From Butyrivibrio hungatei NK4A153 (lineage in GTDB: Bacteria; Bacillota; Clostridia; Lachnospirales; Lachnospiraceae), in assembly GCF_000424465.1 (NCBI RefSeq), contig NZ_KE384198.1, positions 1 to 64,000 of the forward strand: 64,000 nt of DNA. Direction: 5' to 3'. Both the position numbers and the translations under genes were made by a program. The notes under the pieces are model-generated. The model was given only the letters and a program-made list of their open reading frames with translations. It was not told the origin of the DNA and did not search any database. Within the stretch, counting starts at the first letter, position 1. The number at the start of each line of letters is the position of its first letter. Positions 27,956 through 42,289 of the stretch are shown piece by piece.

Positions 27956-27992
27956 AAGGAGCCTCACCTCAAATCAAGGTGAAAGCTCCTTT
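27956..27992. terminator. bidirectional terminator, MFS gene / DUF3048 gene
   Basis: AGGAGC and GCTCCT (27957-27962 with 27985-27990) enclose an inner CACCT/AGGTG stem. It lies between two convergent genes, 11 bp after the MFS stop and 20 bp after the DUF3048 stop. T-tracts on both sides are weak. Confidence 0.7.
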
Positions 27993-28010: not shown

Positions 28011-29141
28011 TTATTTCATTGTCACTGAATCCCATGTATCTGACGGAACAAGTGTGATATATGTCTTACCTGTGTTGATCTGAATCTCCTCACCCTTGTC
28101 ATCATAAAATCTGGTCAGATGAGTTGCATCATCCTTAACCCATGTGATACTTTTGGCAACACCGTTTGTGATATACCATCCGGGCTGTCCTGCTGCGATA
28201 CAGTTGTAAATAAGATAACCGTGATCATCAAGCTGATTGAAATCACATTTCTGGATAAGTACATTCTTAAAGCTAAGAGGCTCTCCGTCCTCTGCATCTT
28301 CATGACGTGATCCGTACTCGTAATACTCATACTGCTTAGTTTCGGCATTATACTTAAGTGTAGAAGTATTGTGCCAGAAAGGAAGTCCGATCTCCGTTAC
28401 GGGATATGTCTTGTCATAAACCTTTGTAAGGTCAACTTCTTTGCCGTAAGGAGCAAAGTTGAAATGACTTCCCTCGTTTCTGTACTCGGTATAAGTTGTT
28501 GAATATGCGGGATCCTTTTTCATGCTTGAGAAGTTACTCTCCATATCACCCGAACAGACATACTCTGTAAACTCTTTAGGTTTTCCGTTTTTAACTCTGG
28601 AAAAAGTTCCGGAGAAATGCTGTGCCCATGGATTCTTAAAATATGCAGTAATATGAGCTATAGGTCCTCCGTCATGGCAGAGCACCGCATCCCACTCGGC
28701 TGCAAGAAGAATATTTGTCGGACGTGTACTTCTGATACTGCCCATCTGTTCAATCTTGCCCCAGTCTTTTACAATGCACATAAGTCTTGTTACTCTGTCA
28801 TTCAATGTACTGTTCATAATTTCATAAACAACATCCGCTTCTGCTATTCCAAAGTGTGGAAGCGCAATTTTTTCATTGTCAACCATTACAGCGATAGGAC
28901 GCTGATCTTTAATATCTTCGCTTATTGGCTCACCTGTGATCTCGCTAAGGTACATTCCTTCCGGAATCTCGAAATTCTTCACTCCATCCGATGAAGCTTC
29001 CGCAGCAGTATCACCGGTAACTACATCTTCGACAGAAATTGAAAGAGAAGAATCATCCGCTTCCTTTTTGCCACAGGCAACATCTGAAAGCACCATTAGC
29101 ATGCACATTGCAAGCGCAACGATCTTTTTACTTTTTGTCAT
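28011..29141 (-). CDS. DUF3048 domain lipoprotein (YerB-like)
   Basis: A 376-residue predicted lipoprotein; the lipobox LSDVAC is at about residues 18-23, followed by a Ser/Asp-rich linker. The DUF3048 pattern is clear: RPIAVMVDNEKIALPHFGIA, EADVVYEIMNSTLNDRVTRL, GSIRSTRPTNILLAAEWDAV, LCHDGGP and a C-terminal domain with GKTYITLVPSDTW. The biochemical function of this family is not known. It overlaps the last gene of the HAAS/SEDS-like array by 14 bases and has GGGAGAA before the ATG, so it is translationally coupled and probably functionally linked to that array. Confidence 0.88.
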   Translation of the reverse strand: MTKSKKIVALAMCMLMVLSDVACGKKEADDSSLSISVEDVVTGDTAAEASSDGVKNFEIPEGMYLSEITGEPISEDIKDQRPIAVMVDNEKIALPHFGIAEADVVYEIMNSTLNDRVTRLMCIVKDWGKIEQMGSIRSTRPTNILLAAEWDAVLCHDGGPIAHITAYFKNPWAQHFSGTFSRVKNGKPKEFTEYVCSGDMESNFSSMKKDPAYSTTYTEYRNEGSHFNFAPYGKEVDLTKVYDKTYPVTEIGLPFWHNTSTLKYNAETKQYEYYEYGSRHEDAEDGEPLSFKNVLIQKCDFNQLDDHGYLIYNCIAAGQPGWYITNGVAKSITWVKDDATHLTRFYDDKGEEIQINTGKTYITLVPSDTWDSVTMK

Positions 29142-30543
29142 AGATAATTTCTCCCATTTTTTGTTTTATTAAAGCCTTTTTTTCTTCCTTCACCTCCTTA
29201 CGTAGTCTGATGTCAAGCTCATAATTCAAAAGTTTCAGTTGAACTCCCGATTGAGCTTTAATGTCTACATGCTGTGAATAAGCATTCTTGTATTTATATA
29301 TACTGAGAATTATCCCCAGGAAGACATACGATACTATAACATTGCTGTCTGATATAAAAGGAAAAAAAGTATCGCCTACATATGTCGTAGAAAATAATCC
29401 AAATCCCACAAGTAAATTTGCAACAGCATTTGCCGTAAGCCAAATGAGACAACCGCTTCCCATTGCGATTCCCACTTGATTCTTTATCTTAGATAAAGCG
29501 ATAAATCCAAAAACAATCAATCCGACAACGCTTAAAATAACTGTTAATCCTATAAGCCATCCCCAATCTGAACATATATACAGAAGGACTTGCTCTCCTG
29601 TCTTTACACCAAAATAACTGCTTGCGGCCATAGTCACATTTTCGCCAAGATTAAGATATACTACCCCGCATCCAAGCGGCTTAAGTCTATCCATAACATG
29701 TCTTACATTTATTAATTTACTGCTGGGAAAACAATTCCTTAGTTCAATCATCAAATTCGCAGGAAAAATCGCAAACGCAGCCCACAAAGATGCAATCACC
29801 TTCTTTTGTGGAATTTCAAACCAGCCCTTCTTTATTGCTATTGTAAGCTGAGCCAGCAAACTTAATGCGATCATCATAACATGCAAGGCCGCATGCCCCT
29901 CCAGTCGCGAACTCATATACATGCACGGAATAACAATCCAAAGAACCGCCTTGATCAGCCCTTTATACGCCTGCCCTCTATACCTATAGATTATTCCGGA
30001 ATATAGAGGAATAAATAAGACAAACAACGTTGTAAAAACAACCCTCGTAATGGAATATGGCTGCCAGAAAAAGTTTCCTTCCGGTCCATGTGAGTAAATA
30101 GCCTGATTAAGTACCATTCCCACTATCAATACAGCCGCCAGCAACTTAGAATATTTTAATATAGTCGTATAATCCACAAGAAATGCAAGTAGCATCAAGG
30201 AAATACCAAAAAAAGCATTAATAGCAATTACGAAGTCATCATACTCAGAATATGCTACCGTCATCCTGATCATCGCTCCGACAGCTCCAATGGTCATTGC
30301 CGCGATTATCAAGCCCCATGCAATTTGCGGCCTGTGAACCCTGTCAAGCGACATTCCGACTTCCATGGGATCCCCCATGTCCTCGACAGCTTTTTTCTCC
30401 GCGGTCACACGGTCCATTCCGTCTGAAACATTCGCTTCTATCTGCTCTTCTATATGCGCCCTGATCTCATCACCTATAGCCTTGTGCGCCTTCTCAAAAC
30501 GCACCTGCTCCAGTAACATTTTGATATATTCTTCCATACTCAT
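29128..30543 (-). CDS. HAAS-SEDS-like membrane protein, copy F
   Basis: A 471-residue protein: N-terminal HAAS/permease-prefix domain (about 1-75, MEEYIKMLLEQVRFEKAHKA ... VEDMGDPMEVGMSLD), then around ten membrane helices. The last third resembles FtsW/RodA/SpoVE proteins: ALSKIKNQVGIAMGSGC, LTANAVANLLVGFGLF and FFPFISDSNVIVSYVFLGI. At the place of the SEDS catalytic Asp this copy has Glu (EQVLLYICSDWG). It overlaps the upstream PadR gene by four bases (ATGA); an ATG two codons on is possible. Its C-terminus is longer and basic (EVKEEKKALIKQKMGE) and overlaps the DUF3048 gene. It is the last membrane gene of the array. Confidence 0.75.
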   Translation of the reverse strand: MSMEEYIKMLLEQVRFEKAHKAIGDEIRAHIEEQIEANVSDGMDRVTAEKKAVEDMGDPMEVGMSLDRVHRPQIAWGLIIAAMTIGAVGAMIRMTVAYSEYDDFVIAINAFFGISLMLLAFLVDYTTILKYSKLLAAVLIVGMVLNQAIYSHGPEGNFFWQPYSITRVVFTTLFVLFIPLYSGIIYRYRGQAYKGLIKAVLWIVIPCMYMSSRLEGHAALHVMMIALSLLAQLTIAIKKGWFEIPQKKVIASLWAAFAIFPANLMIELRNCFPSSKLINVRHVMDRLKPLGCGVVYLNLGENVTMAASSYFGVKTGEQVLLYICSDWGWLIGLTVILSVVGLIVFGFIALSKIKNQVGIAMGSGCLIWLTANAVANLLVGFGLFSTTYVGDTFFPFISDSNVIVSYVFLGIILSIYKYKNAYSQHVDIKAQSGVQLKLLNYELDIRLRKEVKEEKKALIKQKMGEIIYDKK

Positions 30544-30869
30544 ACCCCGTAGGCCAGAACGTTTGCTATCGCGCCGGAATAAACCTCCCACTCCTGTGTC
30601 TTTTCCTTTAATAGCTTTCTGCCCTCTTTCGTTATGCTGTAATATTTTCTTGTCTTGCCGAGATAATCCTGCTCGTAAACCTTGAGAACACCTTTCTCCT
30701 CCAGTCCGTGAAGAAGCGGATAAAGTGTTCCCGCCTTAAATTCAAAGACATTCTGTGATCTCTTTCTTAATGTGTCGATCATTTCATACCCATACATGTC
30801 TTTTTCCGAAAGTAACTTCAGAACCAACATTGTACTGCTGCCTGTTAAAAGAGATTTATCTACTGCCAT
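30540..30869 (-). CDS. PadR-family transcriptional regulator, copy 4
   Basis: A 109-residue winged-helix regulator. GSSTMLVLKLLSEKDMYGYE and FKAGTLYPLLHGLEEKGVLK are the PadR signature; the C-terminal helix ends SGAIANVLAYGV. Start chosen at 30869 after AAGGAGG; the frame opens eight codons earlier. It is nearly identical to the other PadR copies in this array. There is no good promoter upstream, only a AGCGC/GCGCT hairpin after copy E, so it is probably expressed from further upstream. Confidence 0.92.
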   Translation of the reverse strand: MAVDKSLLTGSSTMLVLKLLSEKDMYGYEMIDTLRKRSQNVFEFKAGTLYPLLHGLEEKGVLKVYEQDYLGKTRKYYSITKEGRKLLKEKTQEWEVYSGAIANVLAYGV

Positions 30870-30924
30870 TTTATCCTCCTTGAAGCGCGACAACGGCGCT
30901 AACTTATCTATACTAAACCTTTCC

Positions 30925-32328
30925 CTAATTATCTTTTAAGGATTGCAATCTTTTTTCCTTATTGCTCCGAGTCTTAATATCAACATGCTGCGGATAGGCG
31001 TCCTTATATTTGTACACGCTTATCAGTATCCCCAAGAATACATACGAGATCACAATATTGTTATTAGATATGAATGGAAAAAAAGATGCATAAAACTCCG
31101 GAACAATTCCGAATCCCACAACGATATTGGCAATAGCATTTACCGCGATCCACATCATGCAACCGCATCCCATAATCTGTCCGAGCTGGTTCTTTGACTT
31201 TGCCATACTTACAAATCCAAAAACAATCAGCGCTGCAACTATCATAACAACCGCAAGTCCTATAACCAGTCCCCAGGTCGCCGAGATATAAGTCAAAACA
31301 TAACTCCCCGCAGGAGAATTTACACATCCCCTTGACTGCATTGATGCTGCGCCGCCCCAAGTATATATTTTCCCTTCTCCGAATATCTTCATTGAATCCA
31401 TGATTGTTTTTATATCATTACTGCCACTTCTTATGAATCCGCCAACCTCAGTCCGGATAAAGTAGATCAGATAAAATACATAAGCCAGCCATATAGATAT
31501 GATTGAAGGAATCTTTCGCACTTTTATCCAACCTTTTTTTATTGCATAAGTAAGCTGAACAAGCATGCTGCCTACAACTATAAAGGCACGCATATTATAA
31601 TATCTTGTTGATACAAACGGTATGAGCCTTGGCACAAAAACCCAAAGAAGAGCCTTTATAAGCCCCCCATACGATTGTCCTCTGTATTTGTAGAGAATTC
31701 CCGCATATAGAGGAATCAGCAAAAACATCAATGCAAAAGAAACGCTGACACAACCATTTAAAACCCCCATCAGTGATTCCAGTTGGTCATAATTTAACGC
31801 TTCTCCGTTTAATTCACTCTTATCCGCTATCAGTCTATAAAACTTATAACTTCCGTAGTATGCAATCAGATATCCCGCCACCAATACAGTTGCGATCACT
31901 TTGGAATACTTGGCAACAGTTGTGTAATCCACAAGATACATGAAAAACATTGCGCCAATCCCCAAAACAGTAAAAAGGATATAATATCTGTCATCGGCTG
32001 CAAAAGGCGGCTCACTTATAGAATCGATCAGTAGTTTGTCCTTCGCAATATAGGTATGGATTATTATTCCTATAACGCCGACAAGCACCGCCGCGATTAT
32101 AACGCCCCACGCTATCTGCGGTCTGTGAACCCTGTCAAGTTCAATACCGGTGGCAACCGGATCTCCCATATCTTCTACAGCTTTTTTCTCCGCAGTATCT
32201 TCATCCATTCCGTCTGAAATATTCGCTTCTATCTGATCTTCAATGTGAGACTTAAGCTCATCGTGTATCCCCTGATGAGCCTCACGAAACCTCACTTGTT
32301 CCAATAGCTTTTTTATATATTCTTCCAT
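30925..32328 (-). CDS. HAAS-SEDS-like membrane protein, copy E
   Basis: A 467-residue protein: HAAS domain at 1-75 (LEQVRFREAHQGIHDELKSH, VEDMGDPVATGIELDRVHRP), then about ten membrane helices. The SEDS-like portion includes LIPLYAGILYKYRGQSYGGL, AKSKNQLGQIMGCGCMMWIA and FFPFISNNNIVISYVFLGIL. The residue aligned with the catalytic Asp is Ser (GSYVLTYISATWG). The HAAS domain is the most diverged of the family. The PadR gene normally found upstream is only a C-terminal scar (32371-32477). Confidence 0.75.
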   Translation of the reverse strand: MEEYIKKLLEQVRFREAHQGIHDELKSHIEDQIEANISDGMDEDTAEKKAVEDMGDPVATGIELDRVHRPQIAWGVIIAAVLVGVIGIIIHTYIAKDKLLIDSISEPPFAADDRYYILFTVLGIGAMFFMYLVDYTTVAKYSKVIATVLVAGYLIAYYGSYKFYRLIADKSELNGEALNYDQLESLMGVLNGCVSVSFALMFLLIPLYAGILYKYRGQSYGGLIKALLWVFVPRLIPFVSTRYYNMRAFIVVGSMLVQLTYAIKKGWIKVRKIPSIISIWLAYVFYLIYFIRTEVGGFIRSGSNDIKTIMDSMKIFGEGKIYTWGGAASMQSRGCVNSPAGSYVLTYISATWGLVIGLAVVMIVAALIVFGFVSMAKSKNQLGQIMGCGCMMWIAVNAIANIVVGFGIVPEFYASFFPFISNNNIVISYVFLGILISVYKYKDAYPQHVDIKTRSNKEKRLQSLKDN

Positions 32329-32370
32329 TGTTACAACCTCTGTACCCCTGTAAATCCAACAATACTTATA

Positions 32371-32477
32371 TCATACACCGTATGCCAATACACTTACGAT
32401 AGCGCCCGAATACTCGTTCCACTCATCGGTCTTAGCCTTTAAGAGCTTTCGTCCCTCTTTTGTTATGCTGTAATATT
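32371..32477 (-). pseudogene. padR remnant (C-terminal fragment)
   Basis: About 34 codons encoding YYSITKEGRKLLKAKTDEWN and ending SGAIVSVLAYGV, essentially identical to the end of PadR copy 3 (34017-34346). The DNA-binding half is missing. The fragment is joined directly to a membrane-gene tail at an AATATT microhomology (32472-32477). Confidence 0.9.
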
Positions 32478-32580
32478 CTGTCCTGTATTTCCTGATTCGA
32501 ATTTTTTTGACTTACTGCAAAATTTTATATCTATGCGCTGTAGGTAAGCGTTTTTATATATGCCAAGCACCACAAACATC
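32472..32580 (-). pseudogene. remnant of a seventh HAAS-SEDS-like gene (C-terminal tail)
   Basis: Minus-strand translation gives VVLGIYKNAYLQRIDIKFC and SKSKKFES, matching the tail ALLGIILSIYKYKDAYPQHI and TKSKDLES of copy A. It begins immediately after the copy D stop and runs into the padR remnant. Read together, the two remnants show a deletion that removed most of a padR gene and everything between it and the tail of a lost membrane copy. Confidence 0.8.
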
Positions 32581-32583
32581 CTT

Positions 32584-33969
32584 TTACAGATTCAAATCTT
32601 TTAATAAATTTCTTATCCCAAAACGCTCAATTTCCACATCTTGTGAATATGCATCCTTATACTTATATATGCTGAGCAGTATTCCGAGCGCCGCATATGC
32701 ATAAATAAGAGAATCAGAATTATCAGTTGATACAAACGGCAAAAAAGCACCAACGAAAAACCATTCCGGAAAAACTCCAAATGCAGTGAACACATTAACA
32801 ATAGTATTTACTGCAAGCCACATCATACACCCCATACCCATAACATGTCCCAACTGATTCTTTGACTTAAATAAATTCATAAATCCCAATACGATTATTC
32901 CAACTACAATGGCAATAATCACTATTCCCCAAAACGCTCCGTAAGTCGATGAAATATATGTCAAAAAATATGTTCCAAATGGCCGATCTATAAAGCAACT
33001 TGAAGGTTTTTGAAAACCATCGTGTCCGTAATATATTCCTGAGCCAAACAAATATATTGAATCAACAACTTTTTTTAATATCTCCTCTTGCACACTATCT
33101 CCATAGCATTTAAACATACGTCCGTAAGACAATGATGTGATTATTATAAATCCCCCATATAGGTGTACCAGTACCTTCTTTTGTAACTTTATCCATCCTT
33201 TCATTATTGCAACTGTAAGCTCTGCAAGCATACATATCGCGATTATTGTAGCATCACCCCTTATCAGGTAATCTCCAAAATATATGTAAAAAACAGGAAT
33301 AAAAATCCACAAAAGCGCCTTCGAAAAAGTCTTTTTTCGTTCCTTATACTCATAAAGAATTCCGGCGTAGAGAGGCACCAATATGAGCATCTTGTCAGAA
33401 AGCCTCCATGCAATCTCATTTAAAATACCAATTCCAAATGGCGTTTGCTTAAACGTCAATACTCCTGTATTGATCAATAAAGCATCCGGCAACGATGTAA
33501 TCAAATAACCTGATGCCCATACAATCCCTATAATTCTGGAATACTTTGCAATAACCGTAAAATCCAAAAAATAAAAAAGGAGCATCAAACATATCCCCAT
33601 AATGGTATATGAAAAAAAGTTATTAACAATATAATTTCTATCTGGGTTATAATACTGCCCATCTTTTATCAAAACCTGATCATTCCGCAAAAGAAACTGG
33701 AATATTGCGCCAACAATCGCAACAGCTAATACTGCTACGATTACCCCCCACGCCATCTGAGGTCTGTGAACCTTATCAAGTGCAATTCCCGTCTCAACGG
33801 GATCTCCCATATCTTCGACAGCTTTTTTCTCCGCTGTCTCTTTGTCCATTCCCTCGGAAATATTTGCTTCCGCCTGATCTTCTATATGTGCTCTTATTTC
33901 ATCCCCGATAGCCTTATGCGCTTTCTCAAATCGGATCTGCTCAAGTAATTTTTTAATGTACTCTTCCAT
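32584..33969 (-). CDS. HAAS-SEDS-like membrane protein, copy D
   Basis: A 461-residue protein: HAAS domain (MEEYIKKLLEQIRFEKAHKA, AEANISEGMDKETAEKKAVE), then about ten helices with LVPLYAGILYEYKERKKTFS, LFKSKNQLGHVMGMGCMMWL and AFLPFVSTDNSDSLIYAYAA. The catalytic-Asp position is Thr (GTYFLTYISSTYG). The start at 33969 is chosen because it aligns with the other copies and follows AGGT; the frame opens seven codons earlier. It follows PadR copy 3 by about 48 bp. Confidence 0.75.
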   Translation of the reverse strand: MEEYIKKLLEQIRFEKAHKAIGDEIRAHIEDQAEANISEGMDKETAEKKAVEDMGDPVETGIALDKVHRPQMAWGVIVAVLAVAIVGAIFQFLLRNDQVLIKDGQYYNPDRNYIVNNFFSYTIMGICLMLLFYFLDFTVIAKYSRIIGIVWASGYLITSLPDALLINTGVLTFKQTPFGIGILNEIAWRLSDKMLILVPLYAGILYEYKERKKTFSKALLWIFIPVFYIYFGDYLIRGDATIIAICMLAELTVAIMKGWIKLQKKVLVHLYGGFIIITSLSYGRMFKCYGDSVQEEILKKVVDSIYLFGSGIYYGHDGFQKPSSCFIDRPFGTYFLTYISSTYGAFWGIVIIAIVVGIIVLGFMNLFKSKNQLGHVMGMGCMMWLAVNTIVNVFTAFGVFPEWFFVGAFLPFVSTDNSDSLIYAYAALGILLSIYKYKDAYSQDVEIERFGIRNLLKDLNL

Positions 33970-34016
33970 TTTGTAAAACCTATCTGTCATTTTTATTTAA
34001 TGTATTGCTTAGTCTG

Positions 34017-34346
34017 TCATACACCGTATGCCAATACGCTTACGATAGCGCCCGAATACTCGTTCCACTCATCGGTCTTAGCCTTTAAGAGCTTTCGTCC
34101 CTCTTTTGTTATGCTGTAATATTTTCTGGTCTTACCGAGGTATTCCTGCTCGTATGATTTGAGCATTCCTTTTTCTTCAAGTCCATGTAAAAGAGGATAA
34201 AGAGTCCCTGCCTTGAATTCGAAGACGTTCTGCGACTTCTTCCTCAAGGTGTCTATCATCTCATATCCATACATATCTTTTTCCGAAAGTAATTTTAGAA
34301 CCAGCATTGTACTGCTGCCGGTTAAAAGAGATTTATCTACTGCCAT
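34017..34346 (-). CDS. PadR-family transcriptional regulator, copy 3
   Basis: A 109-residue PadR regulator with the same start (MAVDKSLLTGSSTMLVLKLL) as copies 1 and 4. It differs from copy 1 at only about four residues, all near the C-terminus (KAKTDEWNE against KSKTEEWKE). Its ATG lies four bases after the copy C stop, so it is translated from an operon message. It precedes copy D. Confidence 0.93.
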   Translation of the reverse strand: MAVDKSLLTGSSTMLVLKLLSEKDMYGYEMIDTLRKKSQNVFEFKAGTLYPLLHGLEEKGMLKSYEQEYLGKTRKYYSITKEGRKLLKAKTDEWNEYSGAIVSVLAYGV

Positions 34347-34350
34347 TTCT

Positions 34351-35691
34351 TTATACCCCCATATCCTTGGATCTTGCGCGGAGACTTATGTCTACGTGTT
34401 CTGCATATGCATTCTTATATTTATATATACTCAATATTATTCCAAACATGGCGTATGACGCTAACAATCCATCAAATCGTAGTCCCCCTGAAATAAACGG
34501 TAGAAAGGATGCACTACTATAGTCAAAGAATAATCCAAATCCAAATGTCATATTAAAAATGACTTTTTCTATAAGCCACATCATGCAACCGATCCCCATA
34601 ACAAGACCCAATTGATTCTTAGTCTTAGCTGTTACTATCAGTCCGTAAATAATAAGACCAAGTATAGCAGCTATAACTGCTATTGCGATACCTATTCCCA
34701 TTGTCGTTGATATATATGTCAAAATGTTAATATCTTCAACACAATCAATACTGTCTCCGGATACCTGCCCTCTTCCGAATAGCTTTGCCGATCTGATGAT
34801 TGGCCTTATTGTTATTTCCTCATACCAAAAATCATATAAGCTAAAAGTTTTGATAACGCTTATAATCGGAAGTACAAGCAATGACCATATAAAAATAATA
34901 GCAGGTGCCTTACGTACCTTTATCCACTCTTTTTTTATTGCAATTGTCAGCTGCGCTAGCATACATACCATTGTTATTGCCATTGTCTCAAAACTATATT
35001 TTCCGTCATAAAACGATAATAGGAAAGTACATATAAAAATCCACATTACTGCTTTTATAAGTCCGCCGTACTTCTGTCCTCTATATTTATAAAGTATTCC
35101 TGCAAAAATCGGGATCATCAAAAACATAAGTGAATCCACCCTTGAATTTAAATCATTAAAAAGCCTCGCAATCTCATAATCTACTGAATCCGGATTCGGC
35201 ATCCAGACCCAATAAAGTGAAGCAAAATAAGATATTAACAAGATAATCCCTGCAATCTTAGAATACTTGGCAATCGTTGTGAAATCCATAAGATATAGGA
35301 GTAACATTAAAGCCACTCCAAGTATAGAATAGAAAACAAACATTGTCCCCTCTTGAACAATATGCCCCTTAGATATCTGAAAAGCCAGGCCCCAGTTTAA
35401 CTGTTTTGTCATAAAAATATGAAGTATAATGCTAAAAACTGTCACAGCCAAAGTTGCAACAACAAACTCCCACGCCAGTTGCGGTCTGTGAACCTTATCA
35501 AGCGCAATTCCCGTCTCAACGGGATCACCCATATCTTCAACAGCTTTTTTCTCCGCTGTAGCTTTATCCATTCCCTCGAAAATATTTGCTTCCGCCTGAT
35601 CTTCTATATGTGCTCTTATTTCATCCCCGATAGCCTTATGCGCTTTCTCAAATCGGATCTGCTCAAGTAATATTTTGATGTATTCTTCCAT
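34351..35691 (-). CDS. HAAS-SEDS-like membrane protein, copy C
   Basis: A 446-residue protein, the shortest copy. HAAS domain nearly identical to copy D at DNA level (MEEYIKILLEQIRFEKAHKA, AEANIFEGMDKATAEKKAVE). Membrane part with LMIPIFAGILYKYRGQKYGG, TAKTKNQLGLVMGIGCMMWL and SFLPFISGGLRFDGLLASYA. At the catalytic site DINILTYISTTMG has an Asp one residue away from the expected place. There is no PadR gene between copies B and C. Confidence 0.75.
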   Translation of the reverse strand: MEEYIKILLEQIRFEKAHKAIGDEIRAHIEDQAEANIFEGMDKATAEKKAVEDMGDPVETGIALDKVHRPQLAWEFVVATLAVTVFSIILHIFMTKQLNWGLAFQISKGHIVQEGTMFVFYSILGVALMLLLYLMDFTTIAKYSKIAGIILLISYFASLYWVWMPNPDSVDYEIARLFNDLNSRVDSLMFLMIPIFAGILYKYRGQKYGGLIKAVMWIFICTFLLSFYDGKYSFETMAITMVCMLAQLTIAIKKEWIKVRKAPAIIFIWSLLVLPIISVIKTFSLYDFWYEEITIRPIIRSAKLFGRGQVSGDSIDCVEDINILTYISTTMGIGIAIAVIAAILGLIIYGLIVTAKTKNQLGLVMGIGCMMWLIEKVIFNMTFGFGLFFDYSSASFLPFISGGLRFDGLLASYAMFGIILSIYKYKNAYAEHVDISLRARSKDMGV

Positions 35692-35742
35692 ACAATCCTC
35701 CTTAGTACAACCACTTGCTGTCGTGACAAAATATAATTCACA

Positions 35743-37191
35743 CTACTTTAGTTTTTTTAATCTCAGTTTCTTAAAATCAATGCGAAGATTTATATCTATA
35801 TGCTGTGAATAAGCATTCTTATACTTATAAATGCTGAGTAATATTCCAAGTAATGCATATGACTCAACCAACTTATCATTTGAAACAAACGGCAAAAATG
35901 CCCCTCCGCCTTGATCATCGATAATTCCTGTTCCAACAAGAATATTAACAACGGTATTTGAAATAAGCCACATCATACAGCCGATTCCGATTACCATTCC
36001 CAGTTGATTCTTAGTCTTTAAAACTGTAACAAGTCCATACACAATAAGTCCGACTACAGTAGCTATAACCACTATTCCAACAATCAGTCCGCCTGTCGTC
36101 AGAATATATGTAAGGATCATACTGGTTCCGGAATCTGAAATACTATACTGGGCAGGCGAATATGATTTTCCTCCCAAACTGCTTAACAATGCATTTCCAA
36201 ACAGCTTTACCTGCTTCATATATGCCCTGACTATATCTATATTTGCATTAATGGTTGGTCGTTCATACAGATTTCCATCCTCGCCGACCCATCTAAGAAC
36301 AGTTCCGCTTGCGCGCTCATATTCTTTTTTAGCAACAAATCCCAAAAACACCGAGAAGGTAGTCCATAACGTTATAAGTACAGGTATCTTTGATACTTTC
36401 AGCCATTCTTTTTTTATTGCAAACGTGAGCTGAACAAGCATGCTGAGCACAAATATCAAACATATTACATAGTTATGTCTATAACTAACAATATAACTTG
36501 GAATAATTAACCAAAGAACTGATTTTATAAGTCCATCATACTTTTGTCCTTTGTACTTATAGATTATACCTGCATAGAGCGGAATAAGTAACAGCATAGG
36601 CGGATTCATAAAAGATGAGGTTGAATCCAGCACTTTTATCGGTAACGGAAAGTCTGCGTTTTCCCATCCCGTCCTATGCCCCGTCTTATCGAGCCACTCC
36701 AGTTGCATGAAGTAAACTTTATCACGCAAAAAAATTCCAAGCATATACAAGGCTATCATACATGTTGCTACTACCTTAGAATACTTTGCAACTGTTATAT
36801 AATCCAAAAGATAAAGCAGCAACATTACAGCTATTCCGCTGACAGTAAACATGATAAATGAACCGATATCATTACGATACTTTAAATACTCTAAAGCCGG
36901 ATCTTTTGCCATAAGGACATGAATCAATGTTCCCACGATTGCAACAAAAAAAGCTACGATTACAACTCCCCATGCCATCTGTGGTCTGTGAACCTTATCA
37001 AGTGCAATTCCCGTTTCAACGGGATCTCCCATATCTTCGACAGCTTTTTTCTCCGCTGTTTCTTTGTCCATTCCGTCTAAAACATTCGCTTCTATCTGAT
37101 TTTCTATATGTGCTCTTATTTCATCCCCAATAGCCTTGTGCGCTTTCTCAAAACGCACCTGCTCAAGCAGTTTTTTAATATACTCTTCCAT
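35743..37191 (-). CDS. HAAS-SEDS-like membrane protein, copy B
   Basis: A 482-residue protein with the HAAS domain (VLDGMDKETAEKKAVEDMGD), about ten helices and the longest extracytoplasmic loop (about 295-360). SEDS-like blocks are LIPLYAGIIYKYKGQKYDGL, LKTKNQLGMVIGIGCMMWLI and AFLPFVSNDKLVESYALLGI. The catalytic-Asp position is Ser (TSMILTYILTTGG). It follows the shortened PadR copy 2. Confidence 0.75.
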   Translation of the reverse strand: MEEYIKKLLEQVRFEKAHKAIGDEIRAHIENQIEANVLDGMDKETAEKKAVEDMGDPVETGIALDKVHRPQMAWGVVIVAFFVAIVGTLIHVLMAKDPALEYLKYRNDIGSFIMFTVSGIAVMLLLYLLDYITVAKYSKVVATCMIALYMLGIFLRDKVYFMQLEWLDKTGHRTGWENADFPLPIKVLDSTSSFMNPPMLLLIPLYAGIIYKYKGQKYDGLIKSVLWLIIPSYIVSYRHNYVICLIFVLSMLVQLTFAIKKEWLKVSKIPVLITLWTTFSVFLGFVAKKEYERASGTVLRWVGEDGNLYERPTINANIDIVRAYMKQVKLFGNALLSSLGGKSYSPAQYSISDSGTSMILTYILTTGGLIVGIVVIATVVGLIVYGLVTVLKTKNQLGMVIGIGCMMWLISNTVVNILVGTGIIDDQGGGAFLPFVSNDKLVESYALLGILLSIYKYKNAYSQHIDINLRIDFKKLRLKKLK

Positions 37192-37217
37192 CTTAAAAAC
37201 CTATCTGTAACGCCTTA

Positions 37218-37481
37218 TTACTCTTCTTGTTTTTCCTCTTTGGCTATGCTGTAATACTTTCTCATCTTCCCGCGGCAATATTGCTCATATGAGTTAAGAG
37301 TCCCGTCGCTCTCAAGCCCATGAAGCAGAGGATATATCATTCCAGCCTTCTTTTCAAAAACGTTCTGCGCTCTCTTTCTAAGAGTTTTTATCATCTCATA
37401 TCCGTACATATCTTTTTCCGAAAGTAATTTTAGTACCAATGATTCGTTATTTTCATTTTCATGAGACAGTTCTTCAGCCAT
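37218..37481 (-). CDS. PadR-like regulator, copy 2 (C-terminally shortened)
   Basis: An 87-residue PadR-like protein (97 if the earlier ATG at 37511 is used). The winged-helix core is recognisable (LVLKLLSEKDMYGYEMIKTL, KKAGMIYPLLHGLESDGTLN), but the N-terminus is unlike the other copies and the protein stops after YYSIAKEEKQEE. It lacks the last 24 or so residues that form the dimerising helix in the others. It may be inactive, altered in dimerisation, or decaying. Confidence 0.8.
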   Translation of the reverse strand: MAEELSHENENNESLVLKLLSEKDMYGYEMIKTLRKRAQNVFEKKAGMIYPLLHGLESDGTLNSYEQYCRGKMRKYYSIAKEEKQEE

Positions 37482-37545
37482 TTCTTCCTTATCCTCCTTG
37501 TATCGTGCCATTTGTCATTGTGCCTTAAATATTCTGTCTTATATT

Positions 37546-38973
37546 TCACGATTCGAGATCTTTTGACTTGGTTCGAATTGTTATGTCGATATGCTGCGGG
37601 TAAGCGTCTTTATATTTGTATATGCTAAGTATTATTCCAAGGAGGGCATATGATGCGACTACCTTATGGTTTGATATGAATGGGAAAAAAGATGTGTACT
37701 GATACGCCGGCAACATTCCAAAACTTATAAACATATTTAGGATTGCATTTATTGCAAGCCATAACATGCATCCGCTTCCCATTACCATTCCAAGCTGGTT
37801 CTTTGTCTTTGCTGTGCTGACAAATCCAAAAACAATCAAAGCTGCAACAACTGTGATAATTGCAAATGCCAAAGCTCCTCCAAAAACTACAGCAACTTTG
37901 GTTATCATATAGCATTCTCCGCTGCCTATTCGCGAACTGATAAGATTTAATGTCGATACGGTGATCTTTCCGCCCATATAGCTTACAGAACCGCTTCCAA
38001 AAGTCTTTACTCCACTCAATAATTCTTTTGCTCTGCTTTTGGAAGTAGCCGGGCCAAAGAGTGATCTGACAAAATTCATTTTAGTCAAACTTAAAATCTT
38101 GTTGTCATACATGAATCTGATCAAAACTATCGGAATCACCGTAAATAATAACCATATCGCCGTAATTGACTGTACCTTGGGAACTTTTATCCATTCTTTT
38201 TCTATAGCGATTGTAAGCTCAACAAGTAAGCAGATCACAATTACAAGTGCGCGAAATTCCTGATTGTTTATTCCCGTTGCAACCAAGCCGCTAACTATTA
38301 TCCAGATAAGCGATTTTATCAGGCCTTTATATTTCTGTCCCTTGTACTTATAGAGTATTCCGGCAAAAAGCGGAACAAGTAAAAAAATACATGGCCCCGA
38401 CCAGCTAAAGAAACTCTCTATAGATGTGTACACACTTGGAATTTGATTCCAATATTCCGGATCAAAATTCTCAATTCTTTTATAAAATGCAAAGTTCTTT
38501 ATTGTGTATGAAATCAACAGTAAAGCCGCTACTACCTTGGAATACTTTGCAACCATCATATAGTCTATAAGATACATCCCCAGCATTATGACAATTCCGC
38601 ATACGACGTTGTATAAGTAGTAACCGGCATTATCTAAAGTAATATTTCCGATTATGTTAATTCCGCAGTCGGACGACGATGGCAATTTCTCCAATAAGAA
38701 ATGAATTATTGCTCCGAAAAGTCCTACACCTATTGCTGCAACTATGACTCCCCACGCAACTTGCGGTCTGTGCACTTTATCAAGCGCTATTCCCGTTTCA
38801 ACCGGGTCTCCCATGTCTTCAACAGCTCTTTTCTCCGCTGTCTCTCTGTCCATTCCTTCCGAAATATTTGTTTCTATCTGGTCTTCAATATGTGATCTAA
38901 GTTCATCACCGATTGCCTTGTGAGCTTTTTGAAACCTCACTTGCTCAAGTAACTTCTTAATATACTCTTCCAT
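37546..38973 (-). CDS. HAAS-SEDS-like membrane protein, copy A
   Basis: A 475-residue protein: HAAS domain (LEQVRFQKAHKAIGDELRSH), about ten membrane helices, and SEDS-like blocks LVPLFAGILYKYKGQKYKGL, AKTKNQLGMVMGSGCMLWLA and FFPFISNHKVVASYALLGII. The catalytic-Asp position reads Cys (ECYMITKVAVVFG) and the neighbouring TY found in other copies is lost too. It is the first membrane gene after the PadR copy 1 promoter, two bases after a small membrane-anchored protein gene. Confidence 0.75.
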   Translation of the reverse strand: MEEYIKKLLEQVRFQKAHKAIGDELRSHIEDQIETNISEGMDRETAEKRAVEDMGDPVETGIALDKVHRPQVAWGVIVAAIGVGLFGAIIHFLLEKLPSSSDCGINIIGNITLDNAGYYLYNVVCGIVIMLGMYLIDYMMVAKYSKVVAALLLISYTIKNFAFYKRIENFDPEYWNQIPSVYTSIESFFSWSGPCIFLLVPLFAGILYKYKGQKYKGLIKSLIWIIVSGLVATGINNQEFRALVIVICLLVELTIAIEKEWIKVPKVQSITAIWLLFTVIPIVLIRFMYDNKILSLTKMNFVRSLFGPATSKSRAKELLSGVKTFGSGSVSYMGGKITVSTLNLISSRIGSGECYMITKVAVVFGGALAFAIITVVAALIVFGFVSTAKTKNQLGMVMGSGCMLWLAINAILNMFISFGMLPAYQYTSFFPFISNHKVVASYALLGIILSIYKYKDAYPQHIDITIRTKSKDLES

Positions 38974-38974
38974 A

Positions 38975-39277
38975 TCAGACTGCTCTTTTCTCTACCTTTT
39001 CCCTATCACTTTCGTGTTCCGTTTCCTGTTTTTTCCCTGAAATATCATCTTTACAGTCGATGCATTTCTCTGTATTATCCTCTATGATATTCTCTTCTTT
39101 TCTGTCATGTTTATCATTACTGTTTTCTGCGATGCTCGCAAGAACGTCGTTTCTCATATCGTAACCATCGCCCGTAATGAAAAACACACATAACCACACC
39201 AACAAAATAGCCACCAAGAACAAATGATACAAACCTATGCTATTGCCAAACACAATTATTGAAATTAATGCTGACAT
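38975..39277 (-). CDS. small membrane-anchored charged protein
   Basis: A 100-residue protein with one or two N-terminal hydrophobic segments (FLVAILLVWLCVFFITGDG at about 20-38) and a long cytoplasmic tail rich in Glu, Asp and Lys with a CIDCKDD motif. I do not recognise it. It lies between PadR copy 1 and membrane copy A and is present only once in the array. Its stop codon is almost fused to the copy A start (TGATATGG), so the two are coupled. Confidence 0.65.
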   Translation of the reverse strand: MSALISIIVFGNSIGLYHLFLVAILLVWLCVFFITGDGYDMRNDVLASIAENSNDKHDRKEENIIEDNTEKCIDCKDDISGKKQETEHESDREKVEKRAV

Positions 39278-39325
39278 GATTCTCGCTCCTCCTTAATATT
39301 CTTAGTACGTCTCTTTTTCTATATC

Positions 39326-39655
39326 TTAAACACCGTAAGCCAATACGCTCACAATTGCACCGGAGTATTCCTTCCACTCCTCTGTCTTACTCTTTAAGAG
39401 TTTCCTTCCTTCCTTGGTGATGCTGTAATACTTTCTTGTTTTACCAAGGTATTCCTGCTCATATGATTTGAGCATTCCTTTCTCCTCAAGTCCATGGAGA
39501 AGGGGGTAAAGAGTGCCCGCCTTAAACTCAAAGACGTTCTGGGATTTTTTTCTTAAAGTGTCTATCATTTCATATCCATACATATCTTTTTCCGAGAGTA
39601 GTTTTAGCACCAACATTGTGCTACTACCTGTCAGAAGGGACTTATCTACAGCCAT
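39326..39655 (-). CDS. PadR-family transcriptional regulator, copy 1
   Basis: A 109-residue PadR regulator (MAVDKSLLTGSSTMLVLKLL, FKAGTLYPLLHGLEEKGMLK, SGAIVSVLAYGV). It is the first gene of the array, with AAGGAGG before the ATG. Its own promoter overlaps a perfect palindrome and a row of half-sites, so autorepression is very likely. PadR repressors usually sense envelope-active or aromatic compounds; the ligand here is unknown. Confidence 0.94.
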   Translation of the reverse strand: MAVDKSLLTGSSTMLVLKLLSEKDMYGYEMIDTLRKKSQNVFEFKAGTLYPLLHGLEEKGMLKSYEQEYLGKTRKYYSITKEGRKLLKSKTEEWKEYSGAIVSVLAYGV

Positions 39656-39666
39656 ATTGACCTCCT

Positions 39667-39743
39667 TATATCGTGCATCTATATATCGTAAGTCTATATA
39701 TATCGTTCATCTACATACTATATCGGTTGCCGATATATGTCAA
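39667..39743 (-). promoter_or_regulatory. promoter and probable PadR operator of the array
   Basis: On the minus strand: TTGACA (39738-39743), 17-bp spacer, TAGTAT (39715-39720). The spacer is almost filled by a perfect palindrome TATATCGG-CAA-CCGATATA (39719-39737). Three further half-sites ACGATATA follow at 39699-39706, 39682-39689 and 39667-39674, between the -10 and the ribosome binding site. Binding at the palindrome would block RNA polymerase. This is the only clear promoter of the whole 39.7-28 kb block. Confidence 0.8.
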
Positions 39744-39744
39744 G

Positions 39745-39783
39745 AAAAAAGAAGCTTGCCTCAGATTTACTGAAACAAGCTTC
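39745..39783 (-). terminator. terminator after the SGNH gene
   Basis: GAAGCTTG/CAAGCTTC (39751-39758 with 39776-39783) is followed by TTTTTT on the minus strand, ending the MBOAT-SGNH transcript. The -35 of the PadR promoter begins one base past this T-tract. Confidence 0.85.
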
Positions 39784-39787
39784 CTAT

Positions 39788-40801
39788 TTATCCGGCGTTT
39801 ATGCTATTTTTTATCTCACGGCTGTTGGCATCCCATGACTTGTATCTCTTCTCGCCTCTGTGGTCGGGAAAATCAAATCTGCTTGTGATTTCTTTTCCGA
39901 GATATTCTGTAAATTTCTCGGCGCCGTAGTAATTAAGGTGTGATTCATCCATGAAGTCTTTTTCAAAATCAAGGCCTATGGCGTCGTAGTCATGGTTTGC
40001 ATTGGTAAATCCGATTCCGTTTTCCTGAGCAATTTCTTTTAACCGGTTAAAAACAAGTTCCTGCTCATCAGTGAAGACGTACGGAGTTACTATCATGTGC
40101 AGCTCTATGCCGTTCTGTTTGGTATAGTCGATTATCTTGCGAAGATAGAGCTCGGACTTTTCGGTCAAGCCGCCACTGCTTTCTTGCGTAATCTGCGGCC
40201 TGAGCTGTGGCGTAACCTTGGTCATTGGCTTAAAGCCCTTGAAATTCCTAAGATACGTGAATTTCCTGATAGGATATGTGAAATCGTCCTTGGTAAGTCC
40301 GTTGAGTCTGCCGTGGTAAACGGCAAAGCTCGGAAAGTATTCGGAAAAATGTTCTTTTTCAACGCTCACTTTTAACATTTGCATTTTATTAAGTGAAAAG
40401 CGCATTCCAAGAGCGTTTGGAAGCATCCACTTATACTGGTAATCGTCTTTTTGAAATGCCGGCGAATACACATCGAGCACAACGAGCTTTGGCTTCTGCG
40501 TCTTGCATACTTCTTTAAGGTAATGGTATGTGATCCACAGTGGCTGTTCCGCAGCGCTGTAATCGTATGCCGCCATCCCATAGTCGTCCCAGAGCTTGCC
40601 CGTATCTATCGCGTAGTGTACATGACTTGAGCCCATCATAACGACATCAACGGTGTTGCGCGGCTGATAATAAAGGGCCGCCGCCTGCATGACCCCGTCA
40701 TCGTTTTTTATACTCAAAACACCATCCCAATACCATATCGAAAGGATTGTGACGATCGCAAATATTATGCTGAACCTATTGTTATAAAACCTCTTTAACA
40801 T
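39788..40801 (-). CDS. SGNH-type esterase/acyltransferase partner (DltD/AlgX-like)
   Basis: A 337-residue protein with one N-terminal membrane anchor (about 10-30) and an extracytoplasmic SGNH fold. The nucleophile motif VVMMGSSHVHYAID is at about 53-66 and the Asp/His pair is in FMDESHLNYYGAEKF near residue 292. Such proteins work with an MBOAT acyltransferase to acetylate or otherwise acylate an envelope polymer. It follows the MBOAT gene directly, which strongly supports this role. The acceptor (teichoic acid, exopolysaccharide or peptidoglycan) cannot be told. Confidence 0.85.
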   Translation of the reverse strand: MLKRFYNNRFSIIFAIVTILSIWYWDGVLSIKNDDGVMQAAALYYQPRNTVDVVMMGSSHVHYAIDTGKLWDDYGMAAYDYSAAEQPLWITYHYLKEVCKTQKPKLVVLDVYSPAFQKDDYQYKWMLPNALGMRFSLNKMQMLKVSVEKEHFSEYFPSFAVYHGRLNGLTKDDFTYPIRKFTYLRNFKGFKPMTKVTPQLRPQITQESSGGLTEKSELYLRKIIDYTKQNGIELHMIVTPYVFTDEQELVFNRLKEIAQENGIGFTNANHDYDAIGLDFEKDFMDESHLNYYGAEKFTEYLGKEITSRFDFPDHRGEKRYKSWDANSREIKNSINAG

Positions 40802-40837
40802 CTAATCCCACCAACTAATTTTTTCTGCGCACTTTTT

Positions 40838-42289
40838 TTAAAAACTTACATACATAAAGCTGCTCGCATTGTACCCCGGTCCATATATCCCAAGCAGCAA
40901 AAGCGCCATGATCATTCCATACAAAACAACATATCGCAGTGCACACGGAAGGCTGTCCATTGCTCTTCCGATTCTCTTGTTTTTCCTTGCTATCAAAAGA
41001 TCGAGTGCAAGAACTATGCAGCCGTAGATTGGAATTATAATATCTCGTCTCGATGCGCCTATATCGGCCGCCTGTGCCGCGAAAGAGTCGACTCCCGGCG
41101 TAAATGACAGCATTCTTCCGACATATCCGAGAGCACTGCTCATATTTGTCGCTCCGAAAAAGATCCATGCAAAAGAAACAAGCAAAAAAGTGATCACTCC
41201 GGAGACTATATTTGAGATAAATGCCGGCTCTTTTGTCGGTTCTTTTCCTTGTGCCTTCTTTATCTTTATCCCCGAAATTATTCCAAATGCCATTGTATAA
41301 ATGCCGTGAAGCAGTCCCCATGCAAGAAAACTTGCATCTGCTCCATGCCAGATTCCACATATGATAAATACGATTGCTGTGTTAAGGAACCTGCGCGCGT
41401 TTCCCTTCCTGCTTCCTCCAAGCGGTATATAGATATAGTCTCGCAGCCATCTTGAAAGCGATATGTGCCATCTCCTCCAGAATTCGTTTATATTCTTCGA
41501 AAGGTACGGTGCATGGAAGTTCTCGGTAAGCTCCACTCCGAAGAGATTGGACACACCTATCGCAACCGCACTGTATCCCGCAAAGTCGCAATATATCTGG
41601 ATCGAATACATGAGCATTCCAAAAAACAGCCACATTGCCCCAAATCTGGACAAGTCATTAAATAATCTTGTTGTGAAAAAAGCAAGCCTGTCCGCCACTA
41701 CCACTTTCATGAAGTATCCGTAAAGGATGGTCGTGAAAGAAATCGAAAGGCGCTTGTTCTCTAACATTTTGACGTTAGGCAGCTCTTTTATCCGGTGTAA
41801 AAAGTTATCGGATCTCTCAATCGGTCCGCTGATAAACTTCGGAAAATAGCACATGTAAAGCGCAAAATGTATCGGGTTCTTTTCCGCTTTAGCTTCTCCC
41901 TTATACACATCCACGATGTAGGATATTGCCTGGAATATGTAGTACGAAAATCCAATCGGCATCAGGATCTTTATAAGCGTGTCGTCACGCTGTCCCCATC
42001 TTGCTACATTCTTTAGGGTAAAAAGAAGTACTGCACTCAGCACAACGCCCGCTATTGTCACTATCTTCAGCGCTTTGGTGTGCTTTTTTTCTTTGAGCTT
42101 GTCTTCCAAAATGCCAATGCCGTAAACTACCGCCGTTACCGACACAATCCACATGAGGGAATTAATGCCAAGGTGATAGATGAACGCCAAACTTGCAGCG
42201 AGTAAAATTAATGCTCTGGCTCTTTTCAGCAAATAAAAAAATATGAAAATCATTGTAACAAACAAAAAAGTACTTATGGAAAAGGACAT
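40838..42289 (-). CDS. MBOAT family O-acyltransferase (AlgI/DltB/PatA group)
   Basis: A 483-residue polytopic enzyme that moves acyl groups across the plasma membrane. Recognised by FPKFISGPIERSDNFLHRI, FNDLSRFGAMWLFFGMLMYS, NINEFWRRWHISLSRWLRDY and ICGIWHGADASFLAWGLLHG; the last includes the essential His. It has about ten to eleven helices. It is paired with the SGNH protein downstream. Its ATG shares a base with the stop of an upstream 54-codon frame. Confidence 0.93.
   Translation of the reverse strand: MSFSISTFLFVTMIFIFFYLLKRARALILLAASLAFIYHLGINSLMWIVSVTAVVYGIGILEDKLKEKKHTKALKIVTIAGVVLSAVLLFTLKNVARWGQRDDTLIKILMPIGFSYYIFQAISYIVDVYKGEAKAEKNPIHFALYMCYFPKFISGPIERSDNFLHRIKELPNVKMLENKRLSISFTTILYGYFMKVVVADRLAFFTTRLFNDLSRFGAMWLFFGMLMYSIQIYCDFAGYSAVAIGVSNLFGVELTENFHAPYLSKNINEFWRRWHISLSRWLRDYIYIPLGGSRKGNARRFLNTAIVFIICGIWHGADASFLAWGLLHGIYTMAFGIISGIKIKKAQGKEPTKEPAFISNIVSGVITFLLVSFAWIFFGATNMSSALGYVGRMLSFTPGVDSFAAQAADIGASRRDIIIPIYGCIVLALDLLIARKNKRIGRAMDSLPCALRYVVLYGMIMALLLLGIYGPGYNASSFMYVSF

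Follow-up and report, generated by a model that had tools for sequence, protein, structure and literature searches.

Tandem HAAS-SEDS genes and PadR repressors in Butyrivibrio hungatei: candidate membrane receptors with the fold of a cell-wall polymerase

HAAS domains paired with PadR proteins have been proposed by Ravi et al. (2024) as an alternative to two-component systems (PMC11237479), and a later paper assigns a VanZ domain to the sensor position of such a system (PMC12419801). In Listeria monocytogenes, the SEDS protein Lmo0421 is under the control of the PadR repressor LstR and replaces neither FtsW nor RodA (PMC6624303; this and the other papers are cited here from parts of their text). 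The 64,000 nucleotides of Butyrivibrio hungatei NK4A153 analysed here (the "window") hold a probable single operon on the minus strand (39743-27962), composed of six HAAS-SEDS genes (copies A to F), PadR genes, and genes for a small membrane protein and a DUF3048 lipoprotein. Read from 39743 to 27962, the order is promoter, PadR, small membrane protein, A, truncated PadR, B, C, PadR, D, a gene scar, E, PadR, F, and the DUF3048 lipoprotein, all features lying on the minus strand. We lean, with some reserve, towards reading this block as an operon that represses itself and whose SEDS proteins, no longer catalytic, have become membrane receptors, which would act through HAAS on a shared PadR.

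The six copies are intact open reading frames (ORFs), and copies B to F share 42-50% identity with copy A. All six exceed the cut-off of the NCBIfam profile perm_prefix_1 (NF038403), which bears out the HAAS N-terminus ascribed to them by a first-pass annotation made from the letters alone; PF22564 stays below its own cut-off in each. The GxP motif of HAAS reads MGDP without variation. The same annotation had likened the membrane part to SEDS proteins; the predicted fold agrees, and the profiles taken by themselves give thin evidence, two copies of six exceeding the Pfam cut-off. With hmmscan, PF01098 (SEDS; gathering score 26.4 bits) is above cut-off in D and E, the match of D being the longest and best of the six, and below it in B. 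Copies A, C and F gave no hmmscan match at E<=1, and a six-frame genome search returned copy A below cut-off. The model of copy F (predicted local distance difference test, pLDDT, of 81.7; alignment of 57 sequences) superimposes on FtsW (8p1u, Z 28.7) and RodA (8tj3, Z 28.3) over 300-313 residues. The next match is WaaL (Z 13.7), all others shown being at or below 8.8, and the top Foldseek match reaches 4.1e-07. The poorer model of copy E (pLDDT 71.6; Foldseek 1.3e-05) finds the same top matches, and copies A to D align in sequence with the two modelled copies. The membrane part is thus predicted to have the FtsW/RodA fold, and the condition under which the first-pass annotation would have counted as refuted, absence of any SEDS match by profile or predicted fold, does not hold. 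That A, C and F might have another fold, given the missing Pfam matches, was considered and is ruled out for F by its model.

SEDS by fold, the copies have lost the active site. In SEDS glycosyltransferases the catalytic Asp lies in the fourth extracellular loop, as D262 of RodA and D297 of FtsW. The catalytic residue of RodA is Asp262, whose change to Ala inactivates RodA-PBP2 (PMC10449877). In a HMMER (hmmsearch) alignment, Asp262 of E. coli RodA, numbered by our own count along that alignment, falls opposite a variable column of the array. The residue is Cys in copy A (37546-38973, 475 aa), Ser in B (35743-37191, 482 aa), Ile in C (34351-35691, 446 aa), Thr in D (32584-33969, 461 aa from a conserved ATG, the listed ORF beginning at 33990), Ser in E (30925-32328, 467 aa), and Glu in F (29128-30537, 469 aa from a conserved ATG, the listed ORF beginning at 30591). 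None of these six, and none of the 22 array copies from four genomes, carries Asp; the column holds S (8), T (5), E (3), C (2), and one each of R, N, G and I, counting ORFs of at least 400 aa and leaving aside the shorter broken or deleted copies of strains M55 and LB2008. Among 89 other distinct HAAS-SEDS, Asp is kept in 62 and lost in 27. It is present in all 31 canonical Butyrivibrio SEDS (fetched from the 39 of 51 matches that our sorting made canonical), and in 24 of 29 HAAS-SEDS read phylum-wide from the best-scoring of 45 genomes with matches, out of 398 drawn.

In a tree built without the columns of extracellular loop 4 (ECL4), which the programme flagged for long branches between distant rows, every array copy falls into one 28-member clade (22 array copies and 6 singles; SH-aLRT 100) with Asp in 0/28. 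The adjoining clades hold Asp in 5/6 and 8/10 members, and the Asp column requires at least 18 changes over the whole tree. Judged from this topology, Asp was probably lost once in the array clade, and repeatedly elsewhere among HAAS-SEDS.

Other residues of the active site have gone as well, as shown by comparing, without near-copies, 31 canonical SEDS with 28 single-copy HAAS-SEDS chosen by hand and 19 members of the array clade; counts for QPxExxK and the ECL4 Arg are less sure, these columns aligning poorly. In canonical sequences, the EE pair has its second Glu in 31/31 and its first in 30/31; also present in 31/31 are all four residues (Q, P, E, K) of the QPxExxK motif, the Arg and the Asp of ECL4, and the first Gly of YGG. 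The single-copy set has none of the four QPxExxK residues and no first Glu of EE (0/28 each) and the second Glu in 1/28, together with the ECL4 Arg (26/28), the first Gly of YGG (27/28), and the Asp (25/28, not a frequency since mainly Asp-bearing members were selected). Within the array clade, Arg is found in 1/19, the Asp in 0/19, the first Gly of YGG in 4/19, and each Q, P, E, K and EE residue in at most 1/19, the Arg and Gly columns each showing a gap in 13/19. Structural residues are retained there (Gly 19/19, Pro 19/19, Ser 18/19). The GG pair is missing from 22/22 array copies and from 41/89 other HAAS-SEDS, and ECL4 is longer in most of the array clade. Erosion of the active site therefore seems to run stepwise in these alignments, from canonical SEDS over single-copy HAAS-SEDS to the array clade. 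The array copies are probably no longer enzymes, and a role as wall polymerases is unlikely.

The constraint on these proteins lies on the opposite membrane face. Loops were delimited by eye, using the model of copy E and the general topology of SEDS proteins, and conservation was expressed as mean pairwise identity. For extracellular, cytoplasmic and transmembrane parts, respectively, it amounts to 0.50/0.32/0.38 in canonical SEDS, 0.36/0.56/0.36 in the hand-picked single-copy HAAS-SEDS, and 0.19/0.66/0.38 in the array clade; the sets are comparable because their transmembrane identity is equal. Outer minus inner loop identity is +0.18 in canonical SEDS (bootstrap +0.16 to +0.20), -0.20 in the single-copy set (-0.24 to -0.16), and -0.47 in the array clade (-0.50 to -0.43). 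Taken separately, three canonical subfamilies (n=12, 4 and 13) give +0.23, +0.39 and +0.21, and the six copies of the window -0.44, the subfamily of four and the window's six yielding no usable bootstrap. As the single-copy set was hand-picked (30 loci, mostly Asp-bearing, omitting near Asp-less relatives such as L067 and L162), the comparison was repeated on all 83 other HAAS-SEDS, 81 after removal of near-copies. The inversion persists against this full non-redundant set: the extracellular/cytoplasmic ratio is 0.29 in the array clade and 0.63 in the 81, which are more diverged (transmembrane identity 0.24). Inner-face conservation thus appears from these alignments to be a trait of HAAS-SEDS at large, of which the array clade is the extreme. 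Such a pattern would be expected if the surface under selection had been an active site outside the cell and were now a signalling interface on the cytoplasmic side.

A single promoter with a presumed PadR operator would drive the array. A sigma-A-type promoter, TTGACA-17-TAGTAT (39715-39743), holds in its spacer the palindrome TATATCG-N5-CGATATA (39719-39737), an inverted-repeat putative operator overlapping the operon promoter as expected of a PadR autorepressor. The upper limit of the block in the first-pass annotation, 39743, is the exact first base of the -35 box. Three degenerate operator-like sites (39699-39717, 39682-39700 and 39667-39685, with 2, 1 and 1 mismatches) extend from the -10 box to the ribosome binding site. 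Genome-wide, the exact palindrome occurs twice, at the array promoter and upstream of a solo PadR/HAAS-SEDS pair on contig 5, and the PadR genes internal to the array have no operator of their own. With up to two mismatches, the whole genome gives 17 sites against 18 for a control, no enrichment, so that only exact matches count and weaker targets cannot be named. The whole promoter scan likewise remains at shuffle level (41 promoter-like sites against 40.3), and only the operator-bearing promoter is therefore claimed. The same promoter/operator layout precedes PadR in many related loci. By our pattern, an operator of this kind stands before PadR in 66 of 98 distinct HAAS-SEDS loci and is absent from 28, several of which carry close variants; the remaining four are two loci without PadR and two with too little upstream sequence.

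Two terminator-like hairpins with T-rich tails bound the unit, where the region as a whole counts 19 terminator-like sites against 7.1 in shuffles. The first, of 16 pairs (39749-39785), lies just 5' of the promoter and closes the upstream MBOAT/acyltransferase unit; the second (27962-27984) lies just 3' of the last gene.

Three full-length PadR genes are found, at 39326-39655 (109 aa; PF03551, 2.6e-22), 34017-34346 and 30540-30869, and a truncated one at 37218-37511, so that only three of the four PadR genes announced by the first-pass annotation are complete. The full copies encode near-identical proteins at high or saturated synonymous divergence. The truncated PadR (97 aa), in which the winged helix is retained and the C-terminal helix is gone, is present in 4/4 arrays, its counterparts lying at L055 5210-5503, L056 5295-5603 and L057 9063-9338. 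Comparison of the window's copy with those of the three other arrays gives a ratio of nonsynonymous to synonymous divergence (dN/dS) of 0.05-0.12; the gene is thus under purifying selection and probably a working one, and its product might pair with full-length PadR in mixed dimers or act against it. Stand-alone PadR genes adjoin the window's HAAS-SEDS genes, the arrangement by which a HAAS-PadR dyad is recognised, and PadR adjoins HAAS-SEDS in 111 of 113 loci, some of which are the same place fetched twice. Of the two loci without a PadR neighbour, one holds a homologue that lacks HAAS and the other lies at the edge of a contig.

Among the six copies, dN is 0.03-0.17 in HAAS and 0.48-0.67 in the membrane part, with synonymous sites mostly saturated. 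Synonymous divergence (dS) differs between the two parts in the C/D pair (0.23 in HAAS, 1.48 in the membrane part) and the B/D pair (0.35 and 1.59), a contrast which in these pairs may be taken as a sign of local gene conversion. HAAS conservation through gene conversion alone was rejected, HAAS synonymous sites being saturated or nearly so in most pairs; purifying selection therefore prevails, and conversion adds to it among B, C and D. The order of the array is colinear between the window and Butyrivibrio hungatei XBD2006, whose counterpart of copy E is 98% identical. The two C copies are almost identical in HAAS (dS 0.02) and differ in the membrane part (0.67), the switch being sharp and close to the boundary of the two parts; in copy D the contrast is the other way round (0.24 in HAAS, 0.01 in the membrane part). 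These switches point to recombination while HAAS stays nearly constant, at least one membrane part having been swapped. Furthermore, copy A of the window pairs with copy 1 of M55 and the first copy of XBD2006 with copy 2 of M55, a mismatch indicating that copies are also gained and lost. Broken copies occur in LB2008, internally deleted ones in M55 and SIG344, and a scar in the window. In the internally deleted genes of two Butyrivibrio genomes (L056 5623-6072, 149 aa; L151 3920-4540, 206 aa), the reading frame runs from HAAS straight into the C-terminal part. Pooled over nine overlapping pairs, which share sequences, dN/dS is 0.13 in HAAS, 0.37 in extracellular loops and 0.21 in the rest. The values suggest weaker constraint on the extracellular side, positive selection being not proven.

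The receptor interpretation is drawn from the FtsW/RodA fold, the loss of active-site residues, the free divergence of the extracellular loops while cytoplasmic loops, HAAS and PadR are held almost constant, and the single promoter with its presumed operator. Sensing, relay from HAAS to PadR, and derepression are the inferred steps. The former substrate pocket, now variable, would bind an envelope signal, either a lipid-linked wall precursor or a wall-acting antimicrobial; the cytoplasmic face would relay the change in shape to HAAS, which would in turn alter the shared PadR. Repression would then be lifted, yielding more receptors, small membrane protein and DUF3048 lipoprotein, and six paralogues with interchangeable HAAS would widen the range of signals reaching one switch. 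FtsW variants thought to be catalytically defective still bind lipid II, in complex with FtsI, a defect that their authors were unable to confirm in vitro (PMC8765783); a dead SEDS could hence in principle act as a lipid II receptor. More tentatively, and with somewhat less than even confidence, the array may constitute a hypervariable repertoire, whose dead pockets sense different envelope ligands or bacteriocins and whose membrane modules recombine behind a constant HAAS-PadR core.

Several observations weigh against receptors. The loss of Asp in the array clade probably counts as one event and not as 28, and it is not specific to arrays, 27/89 other HAAS-SEDS being also devoid of it. The extracellular/cytoplasmic ratio is alike in 21 Asp-less (0.61) and 60 Asp-bearing (0.64) other HAAS-SEDS; loss of Asp alone does not, therefore, bring about the strong inversion. 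Positive selection on the extracellular loops was looked for and not found, their dN/dS of 0.37 being above the rest (0.21) but well below 1. Arrays were seen in four related strains only, and the receptor reading does not account for an operon that holds several PadR genes so alike in sequence. For Lmo0421, an Asp-bearing relative, the cited part of PMC6624303 reports no sensing role. Finally, exact operators stand only before the array and the solo pair, with no visible target outside the system, so that the output must lie within the operon or at weaker sites.

This last point leads to the rival that survives best, although we hold it to be rather unlikely: the pseudo-SEDS would mainly be effectors, induced through PadR to bind and shield a target (the membrane or lipid II) from bacteriocins or antibiotics, with HAAS serving autoregulation only. 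With exact operators only at the system's own promoters, its products must be what matters; overproduction of BC4207, a PadR-linked membrane protein, raises resistance to enterocin AS-48 (PMC2774856), and the lipid II binding of the supposedly defective FtsW variants (PMC8765783) would suit a shield equally. The extracellular loops, which would form this shield, are however the least conserved part, cytoplasmic loops and HAAS being among the most conserved.

It is improbable that the copies are still glycosyltransferases, with a rearranged active site and an unusual lipid-linked glycan as substrate. Such an activity could be imagined from the Glu at the Asp position of copy F, the longer ECL4 in most of the array clade, and the MBOAT and acyltransferase genes adjoining all four arrays, but the Asp position is taken by Ser, Thr, Cys, Ile, Glu, Arg, Asn or Gly, the remaining active-site residues are mostly lost as well, and RodA D262A is inactive (PMC10449877). 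No better placed is a role as dominant-negative regulators competing with FtsW/RodA for class B penicillin-binding proteins (PBPs) or lipid II. FtsW D297A is indeed dominant negative in E. coli (PMC8765783); however, ECL4, which bears the PBP-facing activation residues of FtsW, has an identity of 0.19 in the array clade, and derepressed Lmo0421 left the tested antibiotic susceptibilities and the essentiality of ftsW/rodA unchanged (PMC6624303). Decay of a gene amplification without function, to which the window scar, the broken LB2008 copies and the internally deleted M55 and SIG344 copies could testify, is very improbable in view of pooled dN/dS of 0.13-0.37 in every part, strongly conserved cytoplasmic loops, an intact promoter and operator, and colinear order in XBD2006.

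Besides the HAAS-SEDS and PadR genes, the operon encodes a small membrane-anchored protein of 100 aa (38975-39277), whose relatives among the fetched loci are found in array loci only, and a DUF3048 lipoprotein of 376 aa (28011-29141), which overlaps the 3' end of copy F by 14 nt; both had been described from the sequence, the latter as coupled to the end of the array. A literature search yielded no function for DUF3048. The scar (about 32371-32562) consists of a HAAS-SEDS tail (32472-32562) fused to a PadR tail (32371-32477), the latter 99% identical to the PadR gene at 34017-34346. Two scars had been announced; one is confirmed, and its two pieces may be what was counted.

Matches were found in 25 of 61 Butyrivibrio genomes at E 1e-20, and tandem arrays in four (that of the window, XBD2006, M55 and LB2008); some arrays may have escaped notice, since a completeness of 90% or more with little contamination is reached by only 35 of the 61, and short contigs carry some of the single copies. 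Genes for the DUF3048 lipoprotein, the small protein, the MBOAT protein and the acyltransferase are present in 4/4 array loci and in none of the fetched single-copy loci, whose flanks range from <1 kb to 7 kb. The MBOAT acyltransferase and a 337-aa partner (39788-42289) lie directly upstream of all four arrays, and a strong terminator-like hairpin separates them from that of the window. The partner has no Pfam match at E<=0.01, and its relatives occur in 37/61 genomes of the genus, which makes this linkage weak evidence. The genome of the window also holds a solo HAAS-SEDS on contig 5 (L058 5806-7227), with its own divergent PadR, the Asp kept and the second exact operator, as well as a SEDS relative without HAAS or PadR neighbour on contig 12 (L059 5216-6349), with the Asp kept and located between two genes that look by eye lipoprotein-like. 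The latter type has matches of equal extent in XBD2006, M55, LB2008 and genome G025. A search for plasmid copies returned two partial matches only.

If the copies are indeed receptors, the array would be a natural case of an essential polymerase fold that lost its catalytic residue and apparently became a receptor, with likely intermediates still extant: canonical SEDS, single HAAS-SEDS with Asp, and Asp-less arrays. Offering six receptors under a single promoter and a single type of repressor, it would make the HAAS-PadR signalling proposal testable, and it could reveal ligands of the SEDS pocket other than lipid II.

Compared with canonical FtsW/RodA/SpoVE, the array copies retain the fold, the ECL4/ECL5 layout and the structural Gly, Pro and Ser, but they lack the active-site residues, carry an added HAAS, and are conserved on the opposite membrane face. 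The Lmo0421/LstR pair resembles the array in having the PadR gene directly before the SEDS gene and a PadR that mainly represses its own operon (PMC6624303). The N-terminus of Lmo0421 is HAAS-like by eye, with 34% identity to copy E over residues 2-71; on the counterpart in strain NCTC7974, Pfam HAAS gave no match at E<=0.01. This counterpart differs in being a single copy with the Asp present (HTDFVF) and an extracytoplasmic function (ECF) sigma factor alongside, and the 5.2 kb read of its locus hold no array, small protein or DUF3048. In Bacillus cereus, BC4206-BC4207 is likewise an operon of PadR and a membrane protein, induced by an envelope-acting bacteriocin, although BC4207 is a four-helix protein (PMC2774856). 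With the dyad of Ravi et al., the array shares HAAS, a PadR partner, and FtsW/RodA/SpoVE among the listed fusions; the cited part of that paper describes no tandem expansion, Asp loss, inverted conservation or module swapping (PMC11237479). No paper on tandem HAAS-SEDS arrays or Asp-less SEDS receptors appeared among the best-ranked open PMC matches, subscription papers and preprints being outside the search. The first-pass annotation was thus right on PadR pairing, an operon-like block and an unusually large expansion in copy number, and had missed both the loss of the active site and the fact that HAAS-SEDS with PadR is a published architecture, the tandem form being new. Its "diversified envelope system" fits if the copies are receptors or receptor/effectors, and not if they are meant as synthases, since the active site is lost. 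What this locus adds to the published HAAS-SEDS/PadR systems is the tandem array, the universal loss of Asp within it, inverted conservation, recombination, and a single operator-bearing promoter.

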